Shown here: piece by piece, positions 2,430-12,225 of the stretch | Layout of the letters: every line of letters begins with the position of its first letter | Numbering within the stretch: the stretch's first letter is position 1 | DNA from: Haloplanus sp. GDY1 | Lineage (GTDB): Archaea; Halobacteriota; Halobacteria; Halobacteriales; Haloferacaceae | Reading direction: 5' to 3' | NCBI RefSeq assembly: GCF_023703775.1 | Contig: NZ_CP098514.1 | Location: 2,019,998 to 2,083,997 of the forward strand | DNA length: 64,000 nt | Position numbers and translations under genes: made by a program | Notes under the pieces: model-generated | Database searches by the model: none | The model's input: the letters and a program-made list of their open reading frames with translations, nothing else | What the model was told of the DNA's origin: nothing

Positions 2430-3119
2430 TCAGTCGTCGGCCTCGACGACTTCGAGGCCGCTCTCGGATTCGGCGGCCGCCTCGGCCTTCTCCTCTTCTT
2501 CCTTCTTCGCTTTGATCTTCTTCAGTCGGAAAATCTCCTCGCGCTCCTGTTCCTCCAGTTTCTGCTCGATGTACTCCTTGTTCTCGCGGAGGTCGGGCAG
2601 GAGTTTGAACTCGAGGGCGTTGACGCGGCGCTTGGTGGTCTCGATTTCGGTGAGCATCTTCTTCATCGCCGTCTCTACCTCGGCCGCGAGGATGATGGAT
2701 TCGAGGAGTTCCTCGTAGGCGTCGGCCGCCTCGTCGATGCGGGCCGAGGAGCCCAGCAGGCCGTAGCCCCGCTGGTCGAGGCTCTTTCTCACGCGCGAGG
2801 ACTCGATCTGTGGCACGACCACACCCATGATGTTCTTCGACTGGGTCGTGATCTCCGGGTGTTCCTTGAGCGCGGCGGCGGCGCCGCGGACCGCGACGTC
2901 CCCCTCCATCGCCCGCGCCATGTTGATCTTTCGCTGTGCGGTCTCGTAGTTCTCGTCGAGGTCCGCACGGATGTCCTGGGCCTGATCCAGGATGTCCATG
3001 AACTCCATGATGAGGCCGTCCCGCTTTTGCTCCAGCGTGTCGTGCCCCCGCTCGGAGAGTTCGATCCGGTCCTCTATCGCCATGAGGTTCTTGCGAGTGG
3101 GTTTGACGTCCTCGGCCAT
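2430..3119 (-). CDS. atpD: A-type ATP synthase subunit D (central stalk)
   Basis: A 229-residue subunit of the rotor stalk that links the A3B3 head to the membrane ring. The sequence begins [36 protein letters not shown] in outline: an N-terminal helical hairpin rich in charged residues. A long C-terminal coiled coil follows with a Lys/Glu-rich tail ([12 protein letters not shown]). This is the last gene of the usual haloarchaeal order H-I-K-E-C-F-A-B-D. Here it is separated from atpB by about 4.5 kb carrying the bat-bop-crtY-brp cluster. An AT-rich element (tatccttttac, about 3148-3158 on the plus strand) just upstream may give it its own promoter. Confidence 0.95.
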
Positions 3120-3153
3120 TGCCGGGGAGTTGTGGACCGAGCCCCTTATCCTT

Positions 3154-4215
3154 TTACTGTTCGGCGGCCCGCCGGCCCAGCGCCATCCGCTCTACCCGAT
3201 CCATCCAGGTCACCACGACGACGTGCGGGAGCGTCAGGACGGCGACGAACACCAGATACAGCGCCGCCAGCGTCGCGGGCGCGGTCCCCACCCCGGCGAC
3301 GACCCAGACGCCGACGAGCAGGAGGACCGACACGGCGGTCAACGGGACCGCCTCGCGCCCCGTCCACAGGAGCGCCGCGACCGGGCCGGCGGCCGCCAGC
3401 GCCCCTCGCGCGCCCTCGTCGACGCCCACCAGTCGAACCACGTGCCGTAGCGAGTGCCACACGCAGAAGTACACCCCCACGGCGACCAGCGGCGGGACGA
3501 CGAGGAAGTACGCCCACAGCAACAGCGTCTCGCCGGCGTCGCGACGCCAGGCTCGCCCGCCGTCGCGACGGTAGCCCGCGATGAGAGTCCCGAGGGTCAG
3601 GGTCGCGAACCCGACCCCCAGGCCCGCCCGCGCGTCGGGCGCGACCATCCACGCCGCGCCGAGTTCCCGGCCGAACAGCGCCACCCACGCGTCGATCACC
3701 GCCCGGTACCGCTCCGGGAAGCGGAGCATCGGCACCAGCATCGGCAGACCGCCCCGGACGAGTACCGTCCCCGCGCGCACGCCCACGCCGTCCAGGTGCG
3801 GACTCCCCAGCGCGTCGAGGGCATAAAGGTCGCCCTGTCCCCAGTGGAGCCACGTCAGGCCGACGAACAGCGCCGCCGCGACGACCGGCGCGACGGCCCA
3901 CAGCGCGGCGTAGACGCCGCCGAGCAGGAGGTACGCGAGGCCGACGAGCGCCATCGTCCGGGGCGTCGGACGCCGGCCGGCGGCCCGCGCCGGCGCCAGG
4001 TGGTCGACGGCGCCGTGTGGCAACCCGAACACGAGGAGGCTCGCGGCCAGCGGGAGATAGCGAAGCCACCGCGGGAGCGTCGCCGTCGCCCCCGCCGCTG
4101 TCGCGACGGCGGTGCCCAGAAGCAGCGCCGAGACGACGACCCAGGCGGGGCGACAGCCGACCGCGAGCATGAGCGTCGCGGGCGCCCGGTCGCGAGTCCG
4201 GTGTGTCCCCCCCAT
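3154..4215 (-). CDS. brp: Brp/Blh-type beta-carotene 15,15'-dioxygenase
   Basis: A 353-residue multispanning membrane enzyme that cleaves beta-carotene into two retinals, the rhodopsin chromophore. The iron-binding histidines of the Brp/Blh family are visible: HGAVDH (H67, H72), LHWGQGD (H124), and WHSLRH (H254, H258). Hydrophobic helices surround each motif. The ATG lies 4 bases downstream of the crtY stop, so the two are almost certainly translated from one message. The product supplies retinal to the bop protein encoded two genes upstream. Whether it is the brp or blh orthologue of Halobacterium cannot be separated by sequence alone. Confidence 0.93.
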
Positions 4216-4219
4216 CGTC

Positions 4220-5008
4220 TCACGATCCGGCGCCGGCGTCCGCTCCCCGAGGCTCCGACTCCGCCGCCCCGTACCGATCCATCACCCACCGGTAGAGCAC
4301 CAGTCCCTGTACCACGAAGCAGTTGGTCACGAGGAAAAAGAGCGCCTCCTCGACGGGGAGGCCAGCGACCGCGAGGCCGGTGGTGTACCGATCCGAGAGG
4401 ATCCAGATGCCGTACTCGATGGCGACCCGGTCGGCGACACACAGGTACGTCGTCGGGACGAGGACGCCGAGCGCGACGAGTCGGCGGTGTGCCCACAGCT
4501 GCGGCGCGCCGACGGCCCACTGGAGGGCGAGCACCGGCGCCGCCCAGGCCAGGATCGCCCCGAGGTAGAACGTCGACGGCGTCCCGAGCAGGTGCCACCC
4601 GCCGACGCCGATGCCGGCGGCGACAGCCACGGCGCCCAGTCGGCCGCGGATCGATCCCACGCCGGTCGGCCACGCGGCCGGCAGCGACAGATGCGAGAGC
4701 CACAGCGCCGTCAGCCACGGCTGGATCAGGATGAACAGGTACTCCTCGACCGGAGCGTGGCCGAGCGTCGCGAGCGTGCTCCCCTCGCCGTAGGACCACA
4801 CGCCCGTCGCGATGAGGTAGTTGTCCCACGGCGTCGTGTACACGAGGGCGACGACGGTGACGATGGCGACGCCGACCCAGTACCGTCGGCCGCTCCCGAG
4901 CGGCCGGACGGCGATGCGCGTCCGGCTCACGAACGCCGTCGCGACCATGAGCATCATGGCCGGGAGCAGGAAGGCGAGGTGGAACTGAAGGTACGTTGGT
5001 CCGGTCAT
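4220..5008 (-). CDS. crtY: Lycopene beta-cyclase, CrtYcd-fusion membrane type
   Basis: A 262-residue membrane protein with two repeated lycopene-cyclase domains, as in archaeal CrtY (a fusion of the bacterial CrtYc and CrtYd halves). It converts lycopene into beta-carotene. Motifs: TPWDNYL near residue 59 followed by PVEEYLFI in the first half, and the paired PVEEALFF in the second half. At least six hydrophobic segments are visible. It sits between bop and brp on the same strand, 102 bases from bop and 4 bases from brp, so the order follows the pathway to retinal. An AT-rich element (ccgtatagct, 5062-5071) in the bop-crtY gap could be a weak internal promoter. Confidence 0.93.
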   Translation of the reverse strand: MTGPTYLQFHLAFLLPAMMLMVATAFVSRTRIAVRPLGSGRRYWVGVAIVTVVALVYTTPWDNYLIATGVWSYGEGSTLATLGHAPVEEYLFILIQPWLTALWLSHLSLPAAWPTGVGSIRGRLGAVAVAAGIGVGGWHLLGTPSTFYLGAILAWAAPVLALQWAVGAPQLWAHRRLVALGVLVPTTYLCVADRVAIEYGIWILSDRYTTGLAVAGLPVEEALFFLVTNCFVVQGLVLYRWVMDRYGAAESEPRGADAGAGS

Positions 5009-5109
5009 CGTGGCCTGCCGGCGTCACCCGAAGCGGGTCGGGCCGAGGGTTGGGTGGAGCCCCGTATAGCTTCTTGGGTCACGCTATCACGAGCGGGAAC
5101 GCCGCCGGG

Positions 5110-5856
5110 TCAGTCGGCCGGTTCCGCGGCCGCCGTCCCCGACCCCGCGGCGTCGAGCACCTCTCGACTCGACAGGAGGATGAGGCCGAATCCGACCTTC
5201 GCGACCAGGTCGAGCACCATGAATCCCGCCGTCTCGACGTACAGCGAGACCACCTGTAACCCCTCGGTGCCGACGATCCACCACACGGGGTAGATCAGCC
5301 AGACGACGACGATCAGCGTCCGGAGCGTGCCGAACGTCGACGCCGCCGGCCCCGAGAGGCGGCTGGCCCTCTCGTCGAGCGAGCCGTACAGCATGTAGAG
5401 GAGCACGAGCAGGAAGCCCGTCGAGACGCCCCACCAGATCAGCCGGCGCGCCCCCGCGGTGAGAACGCCCGGCCCCGCCGACAGCGTCGCGACGGCGCCA
5501 GTCCCGATCATCAGCATGTCGAGGCCGACCAGCGCCGAGAGCTGGTTCCGGTCCGCCCCGGCCAGCAAGCCGAGGTCGATCAGCAGGAGCGGCGTCGTGA
5601 AGAACCAGTCCGTGTACCGCGCCCAGTAGATGGGCACCTCCTCGCCACCCAGCTGGATCGTCGTCAACCCGAAGCCCAGCGCCATGGCGAGGTAGTTCAC
5701 GAACGCGATGGCGGTGATGAAGACGGTGACGATGTAGAACTCCTGTCGCCGTCGGTCCGTTTCGCCCCAGCCCCTGGCGATGAAGTACAGCATCCCCAGG
5801 AACATGCCGAGCGTGCCGATCCAGAGCCAGATTCCTTCGCTACCGGGTTGTGGCAT
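5110..5856 (-). CDS. bop: Bacteriorhodopsin (light-driven proton pump)
   Basis: A 248-residue, seven-helix microbial rhodopsin. In helix C the [16 protein letters not shown] stretch carries D83 (proton acceptor, D85 of the Halobacterium protein), T87 and D94 (donor, D96). R80 matches R82. Helix G has [12 protein letters not shown] with the retinal-binding lysine K220 (K216). Two glutamates, E198 and E208, fit the proton-release pair. The D/T/D set marks an outward proton pump, not a chloride pump or a sensory rhodopsin. The ATG at 5856 is chosen because a TATA element and a Bat-type upstream site lie at the right distance; a longer open frame overlaps bat. It is flanked by bat upstream and crtY downstream. 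Confidence 0.97.
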
Positions 5857-5882
5857 GATGCACCCGAAATCGGGGGGCGATC

Positions 5883-5910
5883 GGTGTAAGCGTCGTCCAC
5901 AACTAGTTTG
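5883..5910 (-). promoter_or_regulatory. bop promoter: Bat-type upstream activating element plus TATA box
   Basis: Read on the minus strand, ACTAGTT followed by GTGG (5901-5907 and just downstream) precedes TTACACC (5883-5889) by 11 bases. The bop start codon lies about 27 bases further on. This closely resembles the Halobacterium bop promoter, in which an ACTAGTT-centred upstream element bound under Bat control sits just ahead of a TTACACA TATA box and the message is nearly leaderless. The element overlaps the stop codon of bat, so bat's end and bop's control site share the same bases. Confidence 0.85.
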
Positions 5911-7558
5911 GCCGCTCGTCGAGGAGCGCGCCGAACACCTTCCGCTGGGCCGCCCGCAGGTGTTCGTGGAACGTCGACCGGCAGACGCCCATGCCCGCCG
6001 CGAGTTCGTCGCCGGTCGTCTCGTGGGGCCACTCGAAGAAGCCGCCGCTGTACGCACGCACCAGCGCCGCGTACTGCCGCTCCGTCAGATCCTCACGCAG
6101 GCGCGCGACGAACGCCTGCCGCGGTTCGTCCCGCTCCTCGCGGTGGCTGTACCCGACCAGGTCCGCGTCCGCGAACCGCTCGGTGAGCGCCTCGGCCAGC
6201 GACCGCGCGAGGGACTCGCGGGCCACCCCGACGGTGATCCGCGCGGTGCCGTCGGCGACGACCAGGTCGCGGAGATCGGCCCCGTGGTCCGCGAGGAGCG
6301 TCCACAGCTCCGCCCCGGCGACCGACAGCTCGATCAGACAGCCCGTTTCCCCCTCGGTGAGCACCGCGTGTACCTCGACTTCCGTCGTCGCGGCCGCCTC
6401 GCGCACCGCCGCCCCCGTCGCGTCCGACAGTTCGAACAGGCTGGCCGGCCGGTCGCGGTCCGCGACGCTCCCGGCGTACGCCAGCCGGCAGTCCAGCCGC
6501 TCGGCCAGGTCGACCAGCGGGTGGTTCACGACCGTGAACCGGAGTTCGATCACCGCCGTCCCCCGGAGCGTCAGCCGGCTCTCCAAGGTGTTGATGCCCG
6601 TGGCGACGGTCCGGCCGAGCGCGGTCAGCACGGCACGCTCGTGGTCGTCGAACTCGGAGTTGGTCCGGGCGTAGACACAGAAGGCGCCGTAGGTCGCGTC
6701 GCCGTACTGGAGCGGGACCCCGACCGCGGCCGCCGGTCCCCCGACCGTGTCGAGCGCCCGGATCCGGACGCCGCCGCCGGCGACGGCGGCCGCCACCGCG
6801 TCGGTGGCGACGCCCCCGAGGTCCGCGGCCCCCTGGGCGCCGTGGTCCCCGTCGACCGGGACCCGGTCGGGAACGGCGTCGTCGGCCACGCCCGCGACGT
6901 CCCCGGGGACGACCGCCTCGTCCGCGGGATCGTAGGGGCCGATCCAGGCCCCGTCGTAGGTCGTGGCCAGCCCCTCGACGACGGCCCGTTCGAGTTGCTC
7001 CCGGGAGCGCGCCTCGGCCACCGCGCCGGTCACGTCGGCGACGACGCCGTCGAGACGCTCGAGCAGGAGTTCCTGTGCGGCCCGCTCCCGTTCGATCCGC
7101 GCGGCCCGTCTGGCGGCGGCCCGCTCCGCGCGCTTGCGCCGGGTCACGTCCTGCTGGAACCCGACGTAGTGGGTCACCTCGCCCGCCTCGTCGCGGAGCG
7201 GCGCGATGGTCACCTCGTTCCAGAACAGCTCCCCGTCGCGTCGGTAGTTGCGAAGCTCCACGGTCGTCGCCTCGTCGCTCTCGATCGCCGCGCGCATGCG
7301 GGCGACCGGGGCGTCCCTCGTCGCCTCGCCCTGCAGGAACCGACAGTTCCGCCCGACGGCGTACGCCGGCGGGTAGCCCGTGATGCGCTCGAAGGCCGCG
7401 TTCGCGTACACCAGCGGCATGTCCGGCCGCGACGCGTCGGCGACGGTGATCCCGACCGGTGCCTCGTCCATCGCCCGGGTCTTCAACGACTCGTCGACCC
7501 CGTCGGTGCTCGCCGACGTCACCGTCCCTTCCCCTCCGGAGCGCACTCCCCCGGTCAT
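5903..7558 (-). CDS. bat: Bacterio-opsin activator Bat: LOV/PAS, GAF and HTH_10 domains
   Basis: A 551-residue regulator. Residues about 30-140 form a PAS/LOV domain with the signature GRNCRFLQG (C72) and the other flavin-contact residues N104, N114 and Q135. A short coiled linker leads to a GAF domain (about 180-330), then an unlabelled beta-rich segment, then the C-terminal HTH_10 DNA-binding domain ([10 protein letters not shown] ... [15 protein letters not shown]). In Halobacterium, Bat activates bop, brp and carotenoid genes under low oxygen and light. The ATG at 7558 is preferred: upstream codons include only TTG/GTG, and an AT-rich element lies about 30 bases before it. It starts about 110 bases after atpB on the same strand. 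Confidence 0.9.
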
Positions 7559-7667
7559 GCGCTCCCACAGGACGTAGCGCACAAATGGGTTTGGACGGGC
7601 GTCGTCGCGGTGTCGATACGTCAACAAAATCCGGCGGTCCGGGCGGCCCCCGGAACCGGTAGGGGAG

Positions 7668-9083
7668 TCAGTCCGCCGTGACCTCTTCTTCCGCGTCCTC
7701 GGCCGCGTCCTCGTAGTACTGCTCGATGAGGTCTTCGTCGATCCGGTTGAGTTCCTCCTTCGGGAGGTTCGAGAGGAGGTCCCAGCCGATGTTCAGGGTC
7801 TCGTCGATGTCGCGGTTCGTGTCGAAGCCCTGGTCGACGAACTCGCTCTCGAAGTCGTCGGCGAAGTCGAGGTACTTGTTGTCACGATCCGACAGCGCCT
7901 CGCGGCCGACGATGTTCACCAGGTCGCGCAGGTCCTCGCCCTCCGCGTACGCGGCGTACATCTGGTCGGAGACGTCGGCGTGGTCGGCGCGGGTGAGGCC
8001 CTCGCCGATCCCGTCGTCCATGAGGCGGGAGAGCGAGGGGAGCACGTTGACCGGGGGCTGGACGCCCTGACTGTTGAGGTCGCGGTCGACGTAGATCTGC
8101 CCCTCCGTGATGTAGCCCGTCAGGTCGGGGATCGGGTGGGTGTCGTCGTCGCCGGGCATCGTCAGGATCGGGATCTGCGTGACCGACCCCTCGCGCCCTT
8201 CGATCCGGCCGGCGCGTTCGTACAGCTGCGCCAGGTCGGTGTACATGTAGCCGGGGTAGCCACGGCGGCCCGGCACCTCCTCGCGGGCGGCACCGATCTC
8301 TCGGAGCGCCTCACAGTAGTTGGTCATGTCCGTCAGGATCACCAGCACGTGGTAATCCTTGTCGAACGCGAGATACTCGGCGGTCGTCAGGGCCATCCGC
8401 GGCGTGACCGTCCGCTCGACGGCGGGGTCGTCCGCGAGGTTCATGAAGACGACCGAGCGCTCCAGCGCGCCGGTGCGCTCGAAGTCGTCCATGAACTCGT
8501 TTGCCTCCTCGGCGGTGATGCCCATGGCGCCGAAGATGACGGCGAACTCGGAGCCTTCGCCGCCCTCCTCCTCCTCGGGCACGCTCGCCTGTCGCGCGAT
8601 CTGGAGCGCGAGTTCGTTGTGCGGCAGCCCCGAACCGGAGAAGATGGGGAGCTTCTGCCCGCGGACGAGGGTGTTCATGCCGTCGATGGCGGAGACGCCG
8701 GTCTGGATGAACTCCTCGGGGTACTCCCGGGCGTAGGGGTTGATCGCCGCGCCGACGATGTCGCGGCGCTCCTCGGGTTCGATGGCCGGGCCGCCGTCGA
8801 TCGGTTCGCCCGACCCCGAGAGCACGCGACCGAGGAGGTCCTCGGTCAGCTTCATCTTCAGCGTCTCGCCCTGGAACCGGACGAACGCGTTCTTGTCGAT
8901 GCCCGAGGTCCCCTCGAACACCTGGATGGCGACGAGGCCGTCCTCGGATTCGAGCACCTGTCCGCGGCGGATCTCGCCATCGGCGGTCTCGATTTCGACC
9001 ATCTCGTCGTAGCCGATGGGTTTGTCGACCTCGGCGAACACCAGCGGGCCGCTGATCTCGGTGATCGTCTTGTACTCTTTCAT
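7668..9083 (-). CDS. atpB: A-type ATP synthase subunit B
   Basis: A 471-residue non-catalytic nucleotide-binding subunit of the A3B3 head. It begins [16 protein letters not shown] and contains the B-subunit hallmarks [18 protein letters not shown] and [15 protein letters not shown]. The canonical Walker A GxxxxGKT is replaced by the SGSGLPHN stretch, as expected for B subunits. The C-terminus is acidic. Its start is 1 base after the atpA stop, consistent with tight translational coupling. In related operons atpD follows immediately; here bat, bop, crtY and brp come first. Confidence 0.97.
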
Positions 9084-9084
9084 G

Positions 9085-10854
9085 TTAGTACAGCTCCCGG
9101 AGCTGTTCGGTGATGTCGTCTTTCAGTTCGTCCATGTACTCCTCGTAGTCCTCCTGGACGCCGATGCGGTTGATGCGCGGCAGCGCCTCGATGTCCGTGA
9201 TCTCCTCGACCGGCACTCCGGCCTCGAGCGCGTCGAAGGCCTCGTCGTTGAACGTCTTGATCGTCGTGAGGATCAGGTAGGTCTTGTCGGGCTCGCAGTA
9301 CGTGTCCACGTCGTGGAACGCGTTCTGCTGGAGCCACGCCTCGCGGATGTACCGCGCGACCTCGAGGGTGAGCTGCTGGTCCTCCGGCAGGGCGTCCTTG
9401 CCGACGAGCTGGACGATCTCCTGGAGTTCGCCCTCCTCGTCGAGCACGTCCACCGCCCACTGGCGCACGTCCGGCCAGTCCTCGGCGACGTTCTCCTTGA
9501 ACCACGGGTCGAGCTGTTCGCGGTACAGGGAGTACGACTCGTTCCAGTTGATCGAGGGGAAGTGTCGGCGCTCGGCCAGGTCGGCGTCCAGCGCCCAGAA
9601 GCACTTCACGATGCGCAGGGTGTTCTGGGTCACCGGTTCGGAGAAGTCGCCGCCGGGCGGCGAGACGGCCCCGACCACGGAGATGGACCCCTCGGTGTCG
9701 TTGATGTTGTCGAAGTAGCCCGCGCGCTCGTAGAACTGGGAGAGCCGCGCGGCGAGGTACGCCGGATACCCCTCCTCGCCGGGCATCTCCTCCAGGCGCG
9801 AACTGATCTCGCGCATGGCCTCCGCCCACCGCGAGGTGGAGTCGGCCATGAGCGCGACGTCGTAGCCCATGTCGCGGTAGTACTCCGCGATGGTGATGCC
9901 CGTGTAGACGCAGGACTCCCGGGCCGCGACGGGCATGTTCGACGTGTTGGCGATGAGCGTCGTCCGGGCCATCAGCGGGTTCCCGGTCTGCGGGTCGGGC
10001 AGTTCCGGGAAGTCCTCGATGACCTCGGTCATCTCGTTGCCACGCTCGCCACAGCCGATGTAGACGACGATGTCCGCGTCGGACCACTTGGCGAGTTGCT
10101 GCTGGGTGACGGTCTTCCCGGACCCGAAGGGTCCCGGAATCGCCGCCGTCCCGCCTTTCGCGATGGGGAACAGGCCGTCCTGCACCCGCTGGCCCGTCAG
10201 GAGCGGCTCGGTCGGCGTCTGCTTCTCGCCGGCGGGGCGCGCCTCGCGCACCGGCCACTCCTGGCGCATCCGGATCTCCTCGCCGGTGTCGAGTTCGGCC
10301 ACCGTCTCGTCGACGGTGAACTCGCCGGACTCGATGGCGACGATCTCGGCCGTTTCGTCCTCGTCGAGGGCATCCGGCGGGACGAGCACCTTGTGCTCGA
10401 TGGTCACCGTCTCGGGGACGGTGCCGATGATGTCGCCGCGGCCGACCTCGTCGCCCTCCTCGACCTCGGGAGTGAACTCCCACTCCTTCTCGAGGTCGAT
10501 CCCGGGCGCGTCGACCCCGCGGTCGAGGAACGCGCTGTTCATCTTGCTCTCGAGGACGTCGAGGGGGCGCTGGACGCCGTCGTAGATGGTGTCCAGCAGC
10601 CCCGGCCCCAGGTCGACCGTCAGCGGGTCGCCCGTGTTCTCGACGGGTTCGCCGGGGCCGACGCCCGAGGTCTCTTCGTACACCTGAATGGTCGTGATCT
10701 CGCCCTCGATCTCGATGACTTCGCCCATCAGCCCTTCGTCGCCCACGTAGACGACGTCGTTCATTCGGGCGTCGAGATCGACGGCGGTCACGACCGGACC
10801 ACTCACGCTTTCGATGATCCCGTCCTCTCGGACGGTCGTGTCTGCCTGACTCAT
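9085..10854 (-). CDS. atpA: A-type ATP synthase catalytic subunit A
   Basis: A 589-residue catalytic subunit that makes ATP from ADP and phosphate. Features in order: N-terminal beta barrel with [11 protein letters not shown]; the long non-homologous insert region specific to A subunits (about 110-200); Walker [10 protein letters not shown] at about 241-249; [16 protein letters not shown] near the catalytic centre; and [18 protein letters not shown]. No intein interrupts the P-loop, a site where inteins occur in some archaeal and yeast A subunits. The gene is separated from atpF by 1 base and from atpB by 1 base. Confidence 0.98.
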
Positions 10855-10855
10855 G

Positions 10856-11179
10856 TTAGTCTTCCTCCATCAGGTCGATACCGATGGCTCGCTTGATCTG
10901 CTCGCGCAGGCCGCCGCTGCCGGCGCCGCCACCCAGGGTGACCAGCACCGGTTCGATGCTGCCCTCGACGGCCTCCCGGGCCTCCCGGGAGAGATGCGCC
11001 ATGTCGTCGTCGTGCATCACGACGATGCCGACGTCGTCGTCGTCGAGCGTCCGCATGACGGCCTCGTCGAGTGCGTCGTCTTTCTCCTCGTCCGGTACGT
11101 TCTCGAACTTCCGCACGCCCGCGAGTCGGAAGCCCGTCGTGAAATCGGGGCTCCCGATGACGGCGATTTCCTGGCTCAT
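10856..11179 (-). CDS. atpF: A-type ATP synthase subunit F
   Basis: A 107-residue small stalk subunit, beginning [21 protein letters not shown] and containing a Rossmann-like alternating strand/helix pattern with [11 protein letters not shown] binds D in the central rotor stalk and modulates ATPase activity. Its start codon overlaps the 3' end of atpC by 4 bases (ATGA-type junction), indicating coupled translation. Length and position are normal for archaeal operons. Confidence 0.95.
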
Positions 11180-12225
11180 AGGATCACCAGTTCCTCCTCG
11201 ATCTCGTCCTCGGACAGCCCGGCCTCGCGGCCGCGGGCGATGGCGCGGATGTTGTCCACCTCGCGCTCCTTGGCGAGGATGTAGGAGATGATCGGCGCCA
11301 CCGACAGCGGGTGGACGAAGCCGAGCTGCTCCGAGTATTCGAGCAACGCGGCGTCGAGCGCCCGCTCGAACGCGATCAGGCTGTCGGCCTGCTCGAACTC
11401 CGCGAGCGCCTCGTCGAGGTCGTCACCGTACGTGCTCTCGCGGATCGTCGCGACGAGTTCGTCCACGTTCGACGCCAGCGCGCTCAACTCGCCCGCGGAG
11501 AACAGTCGACCGCCCTCGATGTAATACTCCGAGGGGTCGACGTCGGCCCCGCTCCGGGCCAGCCGGAGCGCGTTCCGCGCGTTCCGGAAGTCGATCTCCG
11601 CCTCGAGGAACTCCCGGTAGGTCTCGGTCGCCTCGTCGACGACCAGTTCCGAAAGCAGTTGCTCGTAGAAGACGCGGTCGACCGCGTTCTCCAGCGGCAC
11701 GAGGACGCCGCTCTCCTCGTAGGCCTCCAGCGCCTCCCGGAGCGGGTCCGCGAACATCGTCCGGTCGAGGAGGTCGATGACCTCCTCGATGGAGCCCGCG
11801 TCGAGCAGACGGTCGAGCAGCCGGTCGTCGAGTTCGCCCGCCCGGATGAGGTCGGTCTCGACCTCCTCGCGGTCGGCGTTGGAGTAAATGCCCCGGAGCA
11901 CCGTCTTGACGTTCCACGCGTCGAACTTCCGCAGGTACCGGGCGATCAGGTCGTAGAGCCGACCGTCGGCCCAGTCCAGCAGGTCGTTGAAGTGTTTCGC
12001 GAGGTTCCGGTTGAGCGCGTACTCGATGAGGTCGACCCCCGAGTGGCGCGCGCCGAGCGCGTTGATCTCGCGCTCGTACTCCGACTCCTCCATGAAGCGG
12101 GCGATCTCCGCCGGCCCCATGCGAATCAGCTTCCGGTAGTCGTCGTCGCTGAACAGCGACGCTCGGCGCGACCGAACGCGGGTGGTGACGTACTCCGGAT
12201 TCGAACCGCCGGGGCTCGCGCTCAT
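11176..12225 (-). CDS. atpC: A-type ATP synthase subunit C
   Basis: A 349-residue, largely helical subunit (V-type d / archaeal C) that seats the central stalk on the proteolipid ring. It starts MSASPGGSNPEYVTTRVRSRR and has the family's internal three-fold helical repeats; the end reads [18 protein letters not shown] in outline. It overlaps atpE by 4 bases at its start and atpF by 4 bases at its end. Confidence 0.95.
   Translation of the reverse strand: MSASPGGSNPEYVTTRVRSRRASLFSDDDYRKLIRMGPAEIARFMEESEYEREINALGARHSGVDLIEYALNRNLAKHFNDLLDWADGRLYDLIARYLRKFDAWNVKTVLRGIYSNADREEVETDLIRAGELDDRLLDRLLDAGSIEEVIDLLDRTMFADPLREALEAYEESGVLVPLENAVDRVFYEQLLSELVVDEATETYREFLEAEIDFRNARNALRLARSGADVDPSEYYIEGGRLFSAGELSALASNVDELVATIRESTYGDDLDEALAEFEQADSLIAFERALDAALLEYSEQLGFVHPLSVAPIISYILAKEREVDNIRAIARGREAGLSEDEIEEELVIL

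Follow-up and report, generated by a model that had tools for sequence, protein, structure and literature searches.

The bop gene of Haloplanus sp. GDY1, which encodes bacteriorhodopsin, is preceded by a 16-bp dyad and a TATA-like box that form, with high probability, its own regulated promoter, on which a dimer of the activator Bat would bind the dyad and from which a near-leaderless mRNA would arise, the overlap of the dyad with the bat stop codon being incidental. The first-pass annotation of this site is very likely right in reading the dyad and the TATA box as a promoter, but its further claim that control site and regulator gene are locked together does not hold. The control of bacteriorhodopsin by Bat is a classic archaeal regulon that is known in detail from Halobacterium only, and the comparison presented here defines the putative Bat operator across haloarchaea and predicts the residue of Bat that reads it. 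The points of specialist interest are the covariation between operator and activator and the presence of a conserved promoter inside ATP synthase operons.

Layout, rarity and conservation of the element

The features of the site and its neighborhood are collected in Table 1, in which positions refer to the window, i.e., the whole stretch of 64,000 nucleotides that was analyzed. The sequence from the dyad through the bop ATG (5912..5854, minus strand) reads GCCAAACTAGTTGTGGACGACGCTTACACCGATCGCCCCCCGATTTCGGGTGCATCATG. Eleven bases (5900..5890, minus strand) separate ACTAGTT from TTACACC ahead of bop, an arrangement that had been described in the first-pass annotation and whose coordinates were verified on the minus strand, although the element comprises the full 16 bp of the dyad and is wider than ACTAGTT alone. 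The TAG within ACTAGTT had also been correctly identified as the stop codon of bat, the 3' end of which reads CGG CCA AAC TAG. As sequence spacing, the distance from the TATA-like box to the ATG is compatible with a near-leaderless bop transcript.

Table 1. Features of the bop promoter and the surrounding gene cassette in the window
Feature	Position	Strand	Basis or remark
16-bp dyad (Bat-type upstream activating sequence), GCCAAACTAGTTGTGG	5897..5912	-	consensus ACCNAACTAGTTNGGT
ACTAGTT core of the dyad	5907..5901	-	read from sequence
TAG, bat stop codon within the dyad core	5905..5903	-	read from sequence
TATA-like box TTACACC, 7 bp downstream of the dyad	5889..5883	-	
Predicted bop transcription start zone	5858..5862	-	about -4 from ATG; predicted from H. 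salinarum spacing
bop ATG	5856..5854	-	read from sequence
bop, bacteriorhodopsin, 248 aa	5110..5856	-	Pfam Bac_rhodopsin 1.3e-65
bat, LOV/PAS-GAF-BAT-HTH_10 activator, 574 aa as called	5903..7627	-	Pfam PAS, GAF, BAT and HTH_10
crtY-type lycopene cyclase, downstream in the cluster	4220..5008	-	
brp/blh beta-carotene 15,15'-dioxygenase (makes retinal)	3154..4215	-	
atpB, subunit B of the A-type ATP synthase; flanks the cassette upstream	7668..9083	-	
atpD, subunit D of the A-type ATP synthase; flanks the cassette downstream	2430..3119	-	

The G+C content of the window is 70%, and CTAG occurs 13 times in its 64 kb. A composite pattern, ACTAGTTNNGNANNNNGCTTA, the design of which was prompted by the sequences of relatives, has a single exact match in the 3.44-Mb genome, namely the present site, with no match at one mismatch and two at two mismatches. 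A 27-column profile trained on 37 bat-adjacent loci, all outside Haloplanus, assigns 30.5 bits to the present site, compared with 8.3 bits for the runner-up in the window and a maximum of 12.4 bits in 20 Mb of first-order Markov (Markov-1) random sequence. The combination of dyad and TATA box upstream of bop is more than chance. When the genome was scanned for the dyad only, at up to three mismatches, the number of matches was equal to that of a reversed control, and such a loose scan is therefore unable to list the regulon; a Bat-type dyad was not found near the two crtB-like genes of this genome.

For comparison, protein searches yielded 64 named bop loci, further loci of the same genus, and loci from a sample spread evenly over the class (142 genomes with a match out of 391), giving a pooled set of 137 non-identical loci. 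The dyad could be anchored in 89 of the 137, in some cases by hand placement. Within bat-adjacent loci, dyad offsets 5, 6, 9, 10, and 11 (A, C, G, T, and T) carry 1.4-1.9 bits, most columns flanking the core carry about 0-0.5 bits, and in close relatives the TTA of the TATA position (+23..+25) reaches 1.92 bits. Within the core, the central TA of TAG varies most, with ACTGGTT and ACCAGTT among the variants. The Halorussus dyad (L039), ACCACACTAGTGTGGT, is a perfect palindrome. A lack of conservation of the ACTAGTT bases beyond the stop codon had been named in the first-pass annotation as one observation that would refute it; the core columns are conserved at the level given above, well past the stop codon, and in most of the bat-adjacent loci the stop lies elsewhere, which supports a Bat-type upstream element and TATA box at bop. 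The dyad is also retained without an adjacent bat in Natronomonas (L024, L026, and L044) and in L171 and L190. The putative bop switch is conserved in dozens of related species.

A different arrangement is observed in the Natrialbaceae-type loci (L131-L150), where most bop promoters lack the dyad and carry another conserved element, approximately GTTATNTNCGTTAGG, followed by a GTATAT box. Several of these genomes still encode a full-length Bat with the helix RPTFHEHL, and the dyad is present in L148, a locus of this family in which bat is adjacent.

Covariation of the dyad core with the Bat recognition helix

The N-terminal PAS domain of Bat is LOV-like, with many blue-light receptors among its best solved relatives, and its LOV motif GRNCRFLQ (residues 90-100; window 7328-7360, minus strand) is intact, including the flavin-linking cysteine C95. 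In Bat of H. salinarum, the counterpart motif is GANHRFL, with NHRFL in place of NCRFL and no cysteine, so that Bat may not sense light in the same way in all genera. According to the mechanism proposed here, Bat would sense light through the LOV domain, and possibly redox through the GAF domain; a Bat dimer would then bind the 16-bp dyad ACCNAACTAGTTNGGT with one recognition helix per half-site and recruit TBP/TFB to TTACAC, a weak TATA box that follows the dyad after 7 bp, activating a bop mRNA that would begin a few bases before the ATG.

The assignment of Bat to the dyad draws on a comparison of 79 Bat proteins, each paired with a bop dyad that nearly always belongs to the neighboring gene. 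In a structure model, the recognition helix is the second HTH helix (550-570) and begins with Arg550. Arg at this position, as in the RSTFHEHL of the window, is accompanied by G at dyad offset 9 (AGTT) in 61/61 loci, whereas loci with Pro, Ala, Gln, or Thr have A or T there in 16 cases out of 17 alignable ones, the exception being L184. When the core was masked during anchoring, G was found in all 54 applicable loci of the Arg class. Bats with an RQT helix pair with AGTC (L239-L241), as does L155, which has RST. On a Bat tree calculated without the HTH, a quick build in which several rows sit on long branches, the helix residue has changed independently three times and the base follows in about 2.9 of the 3 changes (random pairings); three independent changes yield a sign test p of 0.25, which is below significance, and the pattern was recognized post hoc.

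Two Haloplanus genomes, G003 and G009, contain both an RST-Bat with AGTT and a VAST-Bat with AATT or GATT. The second of these systems belongs to a Halobacterium-type bop that is found in several Haloplanus genomes (loci L253, L254, L255, and L256), where it is accompanied by a Bat of its own, with the helix VPST or VAST, and by another dyad core. A recognition code in which Arg550 specifies G (AGTT) and Pro, Ala, Gln, or Thr specifies GATT, TTT, or ATT, with two codes coexisting in G003 and G009, apparently one per bop, has about equal chances of holding and of failing. One novel aspect is that the dyad core covaries with the residue that opens the Bat recognition helix, which suggests that the dyad is read directly by Bat; the other is the separate promoter indicated for bop genes within ATP synthase operons.

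This covariation also bears on the possibility that the dyad is bound by another regulator, such as a zinc-finger protein or a Bat paralogue, with Bat acting indirectly. Genetic work established both the activator sequence and Bat in H. salinarum (PMC1447603, PMC1502140), and genetic evidence is the kind of support for the activator sequence given in the available text of the sources; bop there requires Brz (PMC3184054, PMC2253796) and Brb besides Bat (PMC3184054), and many Bat-like paralogues occur in haloarchaeal genomes. Against another regulator stand the covariation of the core with a residue of the Bat recognition helix and the Halobacterium-type bat that accompanies the second bop and a different core within the same Haloplanus genomes. 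In addition, no Brz was found in the Haloplanus sp. GDY1 genome with the H. salinarum protein as query (best E 0.39), so that the co-factor requirement may differ in this genome. The requirement for Brz is established for H. salinarum only rather than as a universal feature of the regulon. Binding by another regulator is considered unlikely, and Bat remains the preferred candidate.

Placement in the ATP synthase operon and overlap with bat

The phototrophy cassette bat-bop-crtY-brp sits between atpB and atpD of the A-type ATP synthase operon (window 2430-12225, minus strand), and brp and crtY, downstream of bop, may be co-transcribed with it. A position of bop between atp genes is common to most related genera and has already been reported (PMC1885257, PMC7755889); among the 77 bop loci of 63% identity or more, 51 have same-strand atpA/B upstream and atpD downstream, some of the others being cut by contig ends or by the extent of the retrieved sequence. 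Placed in this way on the same strand, bop might be transcribed mainly by read-through of the ATP synthase operon, with the dyad as a relic; read-through is the published proposal for BRI of H. marismortui, a bop described in the available text of the source as constitutive and without a separate promoter (PMC7755889). The bop dyads of Haloarcula are indeed degenerate (AATATTTT; e.g., ACCTAATATTTTGGGT), although they are kept at the same distance. A relic is not expected to be near-invariant in spacing and sequence across genera. Read-through as the main source of bop mRNA is thus judged quite improbable; the dyad promoter would instead provide bop with its own switch within the operon.

The relationship between the dyad and the end of bat was examined at the 46 bat-bop junctions in which the dyad was anchored. 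Measured from the bop ATG, the distance to the dyad is 57.5±1.4 nt (54-60) and that to the bat stop 110.8±63.5 nt (47-328), and a fixed site combined with a wandering stop means that the two are not locked. The dyad TAG serves as the bat stop in 9/46 junctions from six genera (three in Haloplanus, two in Halobaculum, one in Halorussus, and three in as many additional genera). At the other 37 junctions, the bat stop precedes the dyad TAG by 9-277 nt. Over all 46, the phase of the bat frame relative to the TAG is distributed as 18/13/15, i.e., at random, and no bat frame was seen to extend beyond the dyad. Four Haloplanus species have their bat stop 9 nt before the dyad TAG, which then forms an in-frame second stop, and two Haloplanus relatives (L127 and L019) have a bat frame out of phase and a stop further upstream, with the dyad intact. 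Together with the variability of the central TA of the core, the small share of overlaps, the random phase, and the wandering stop contradict the earlier notion of locking. The same annotation had proposed a conserved bat-bop adjacency beyond Halobacterium, of which one part stands, since adjacent co-directional bat and bop occur in 49 of the 137 non-identical loci, whereas in Halobacterium itself the two genes are not adjacent.

Selection for the overlap, by which termination of bat translation would clear or expose the operator and couple it to bop transcription, could be supposed from its presence in six genera, from the second in-frame TAG 9 nt after the bat stop in several Haloplanus species, and from the fact that no bat frame passes the dyad. 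Such coupling seems very improbable given the 9/46 overlaps, the random phase, and the two out-of-phase Haloplanus relatives. That ACTAGTT is conserved merely as the coding end of bat (C-terminal Pro-Asn-stop) with no promoter role is hardly credible: bat does end in PN, PH, or PD followed by the dyad TAG at 9/46 junctions, but a coding or stop-codon constraint is ruled out by the 37/46 that keep the dyad outside the coding frame, the phase is random, the bases after the stop are equally conserved, and the dyad is kept without an adjacent bat. In the simplest interpretation, the overlap is a by-product of compact spacing that has arisen repeatedly, neither a rule nor a regulatory device: whenever a drifting bat frame enters the dyad in phase, the fixed operator would catch it, and the dyad TAG would end bat translation. 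The overlap illustrates how a fixed operator can turn into the stop codon of the preceding gene.

Comparison with known regulatory systems

The nearest known system is the bop promoter of H. salinarum, represented here by locus L262, the genome of which was taken as H. salinarum on the basis of a 100% match to the bacteriorhodopsin (BR) protein. The promoter reads ACCATACTGATTGGGT-CGTAGAG-TTACACACATAT...ATG and shares with the present site the 16-bp ACC...GG dyad, the 7-bp gap, a TTACAC TATA-like box (TTACACA there, TTACACC here), and an ATG about 31-33 nt further on; a Bat of the same domain order is encoded in the genome. The dyad core is ACTGATT there and ACTAGTT here, and the Bat recognition helix is PSTYHQHL there and RSTFHEHL here. 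The statement that the Haloplanus site mirrors the Halobacterium promoter consequently applies to layout, outer bases, and TATA box (17/31 bases), but not to ACTAGTT. A site with the ACTAG core, ACCCCACTAGCTTGGGT, occurs upstream of brp in H. salinarum.

The gene order differs as well, in that brz lies directly upstream of bop in Halobacterium and bat belongs to the divergent brp-bat operon (PMC2253796), whereas bat is directly upstream of bop here; an argument from bat-bop adjacency is therefore inapplicable to Halobacterium. Since the cores differ, and the difference tracks the type of Bat helix, the Haloplanus element is probably best classed as a variant of the known Bat-bop regulon and not as an identical member. 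In the H. salinarum genome that was used, bop is split after approximately codon 5 between two contig ends (L262 1-110 and L169 1-100) that have similar terminal sequences, suggesting an insertion element in bop; the second contig carries the promoter in intact form.

Among other haloarchaeal activators, the GvpE activator sequences of gas vesicle promoters are likewise located directly upstream of the BRE/TATA region, but they have an unrelated structure, consisting of 8-nt elements 4 nt apart, and serve another activator (PMC4390858). Other bop genes located within ATP synthase operons, among them Haloarcula BRI and that of Halorubrum, share the atpB-atpD placement, often together with bat, crtY, and brp. 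For these genes, a conserved promoter is not described in the available text of PMC1885257 and PMC7755889, the latter of which states that the H. marismortui BRI gene has none, whereas most of them carry the dyad and TATA box at fixed spacing in the present comparison. These sequences point to a separate promoter for bop genes in this position, and such a switch would contradict the published statement that one gene of this kind has none.
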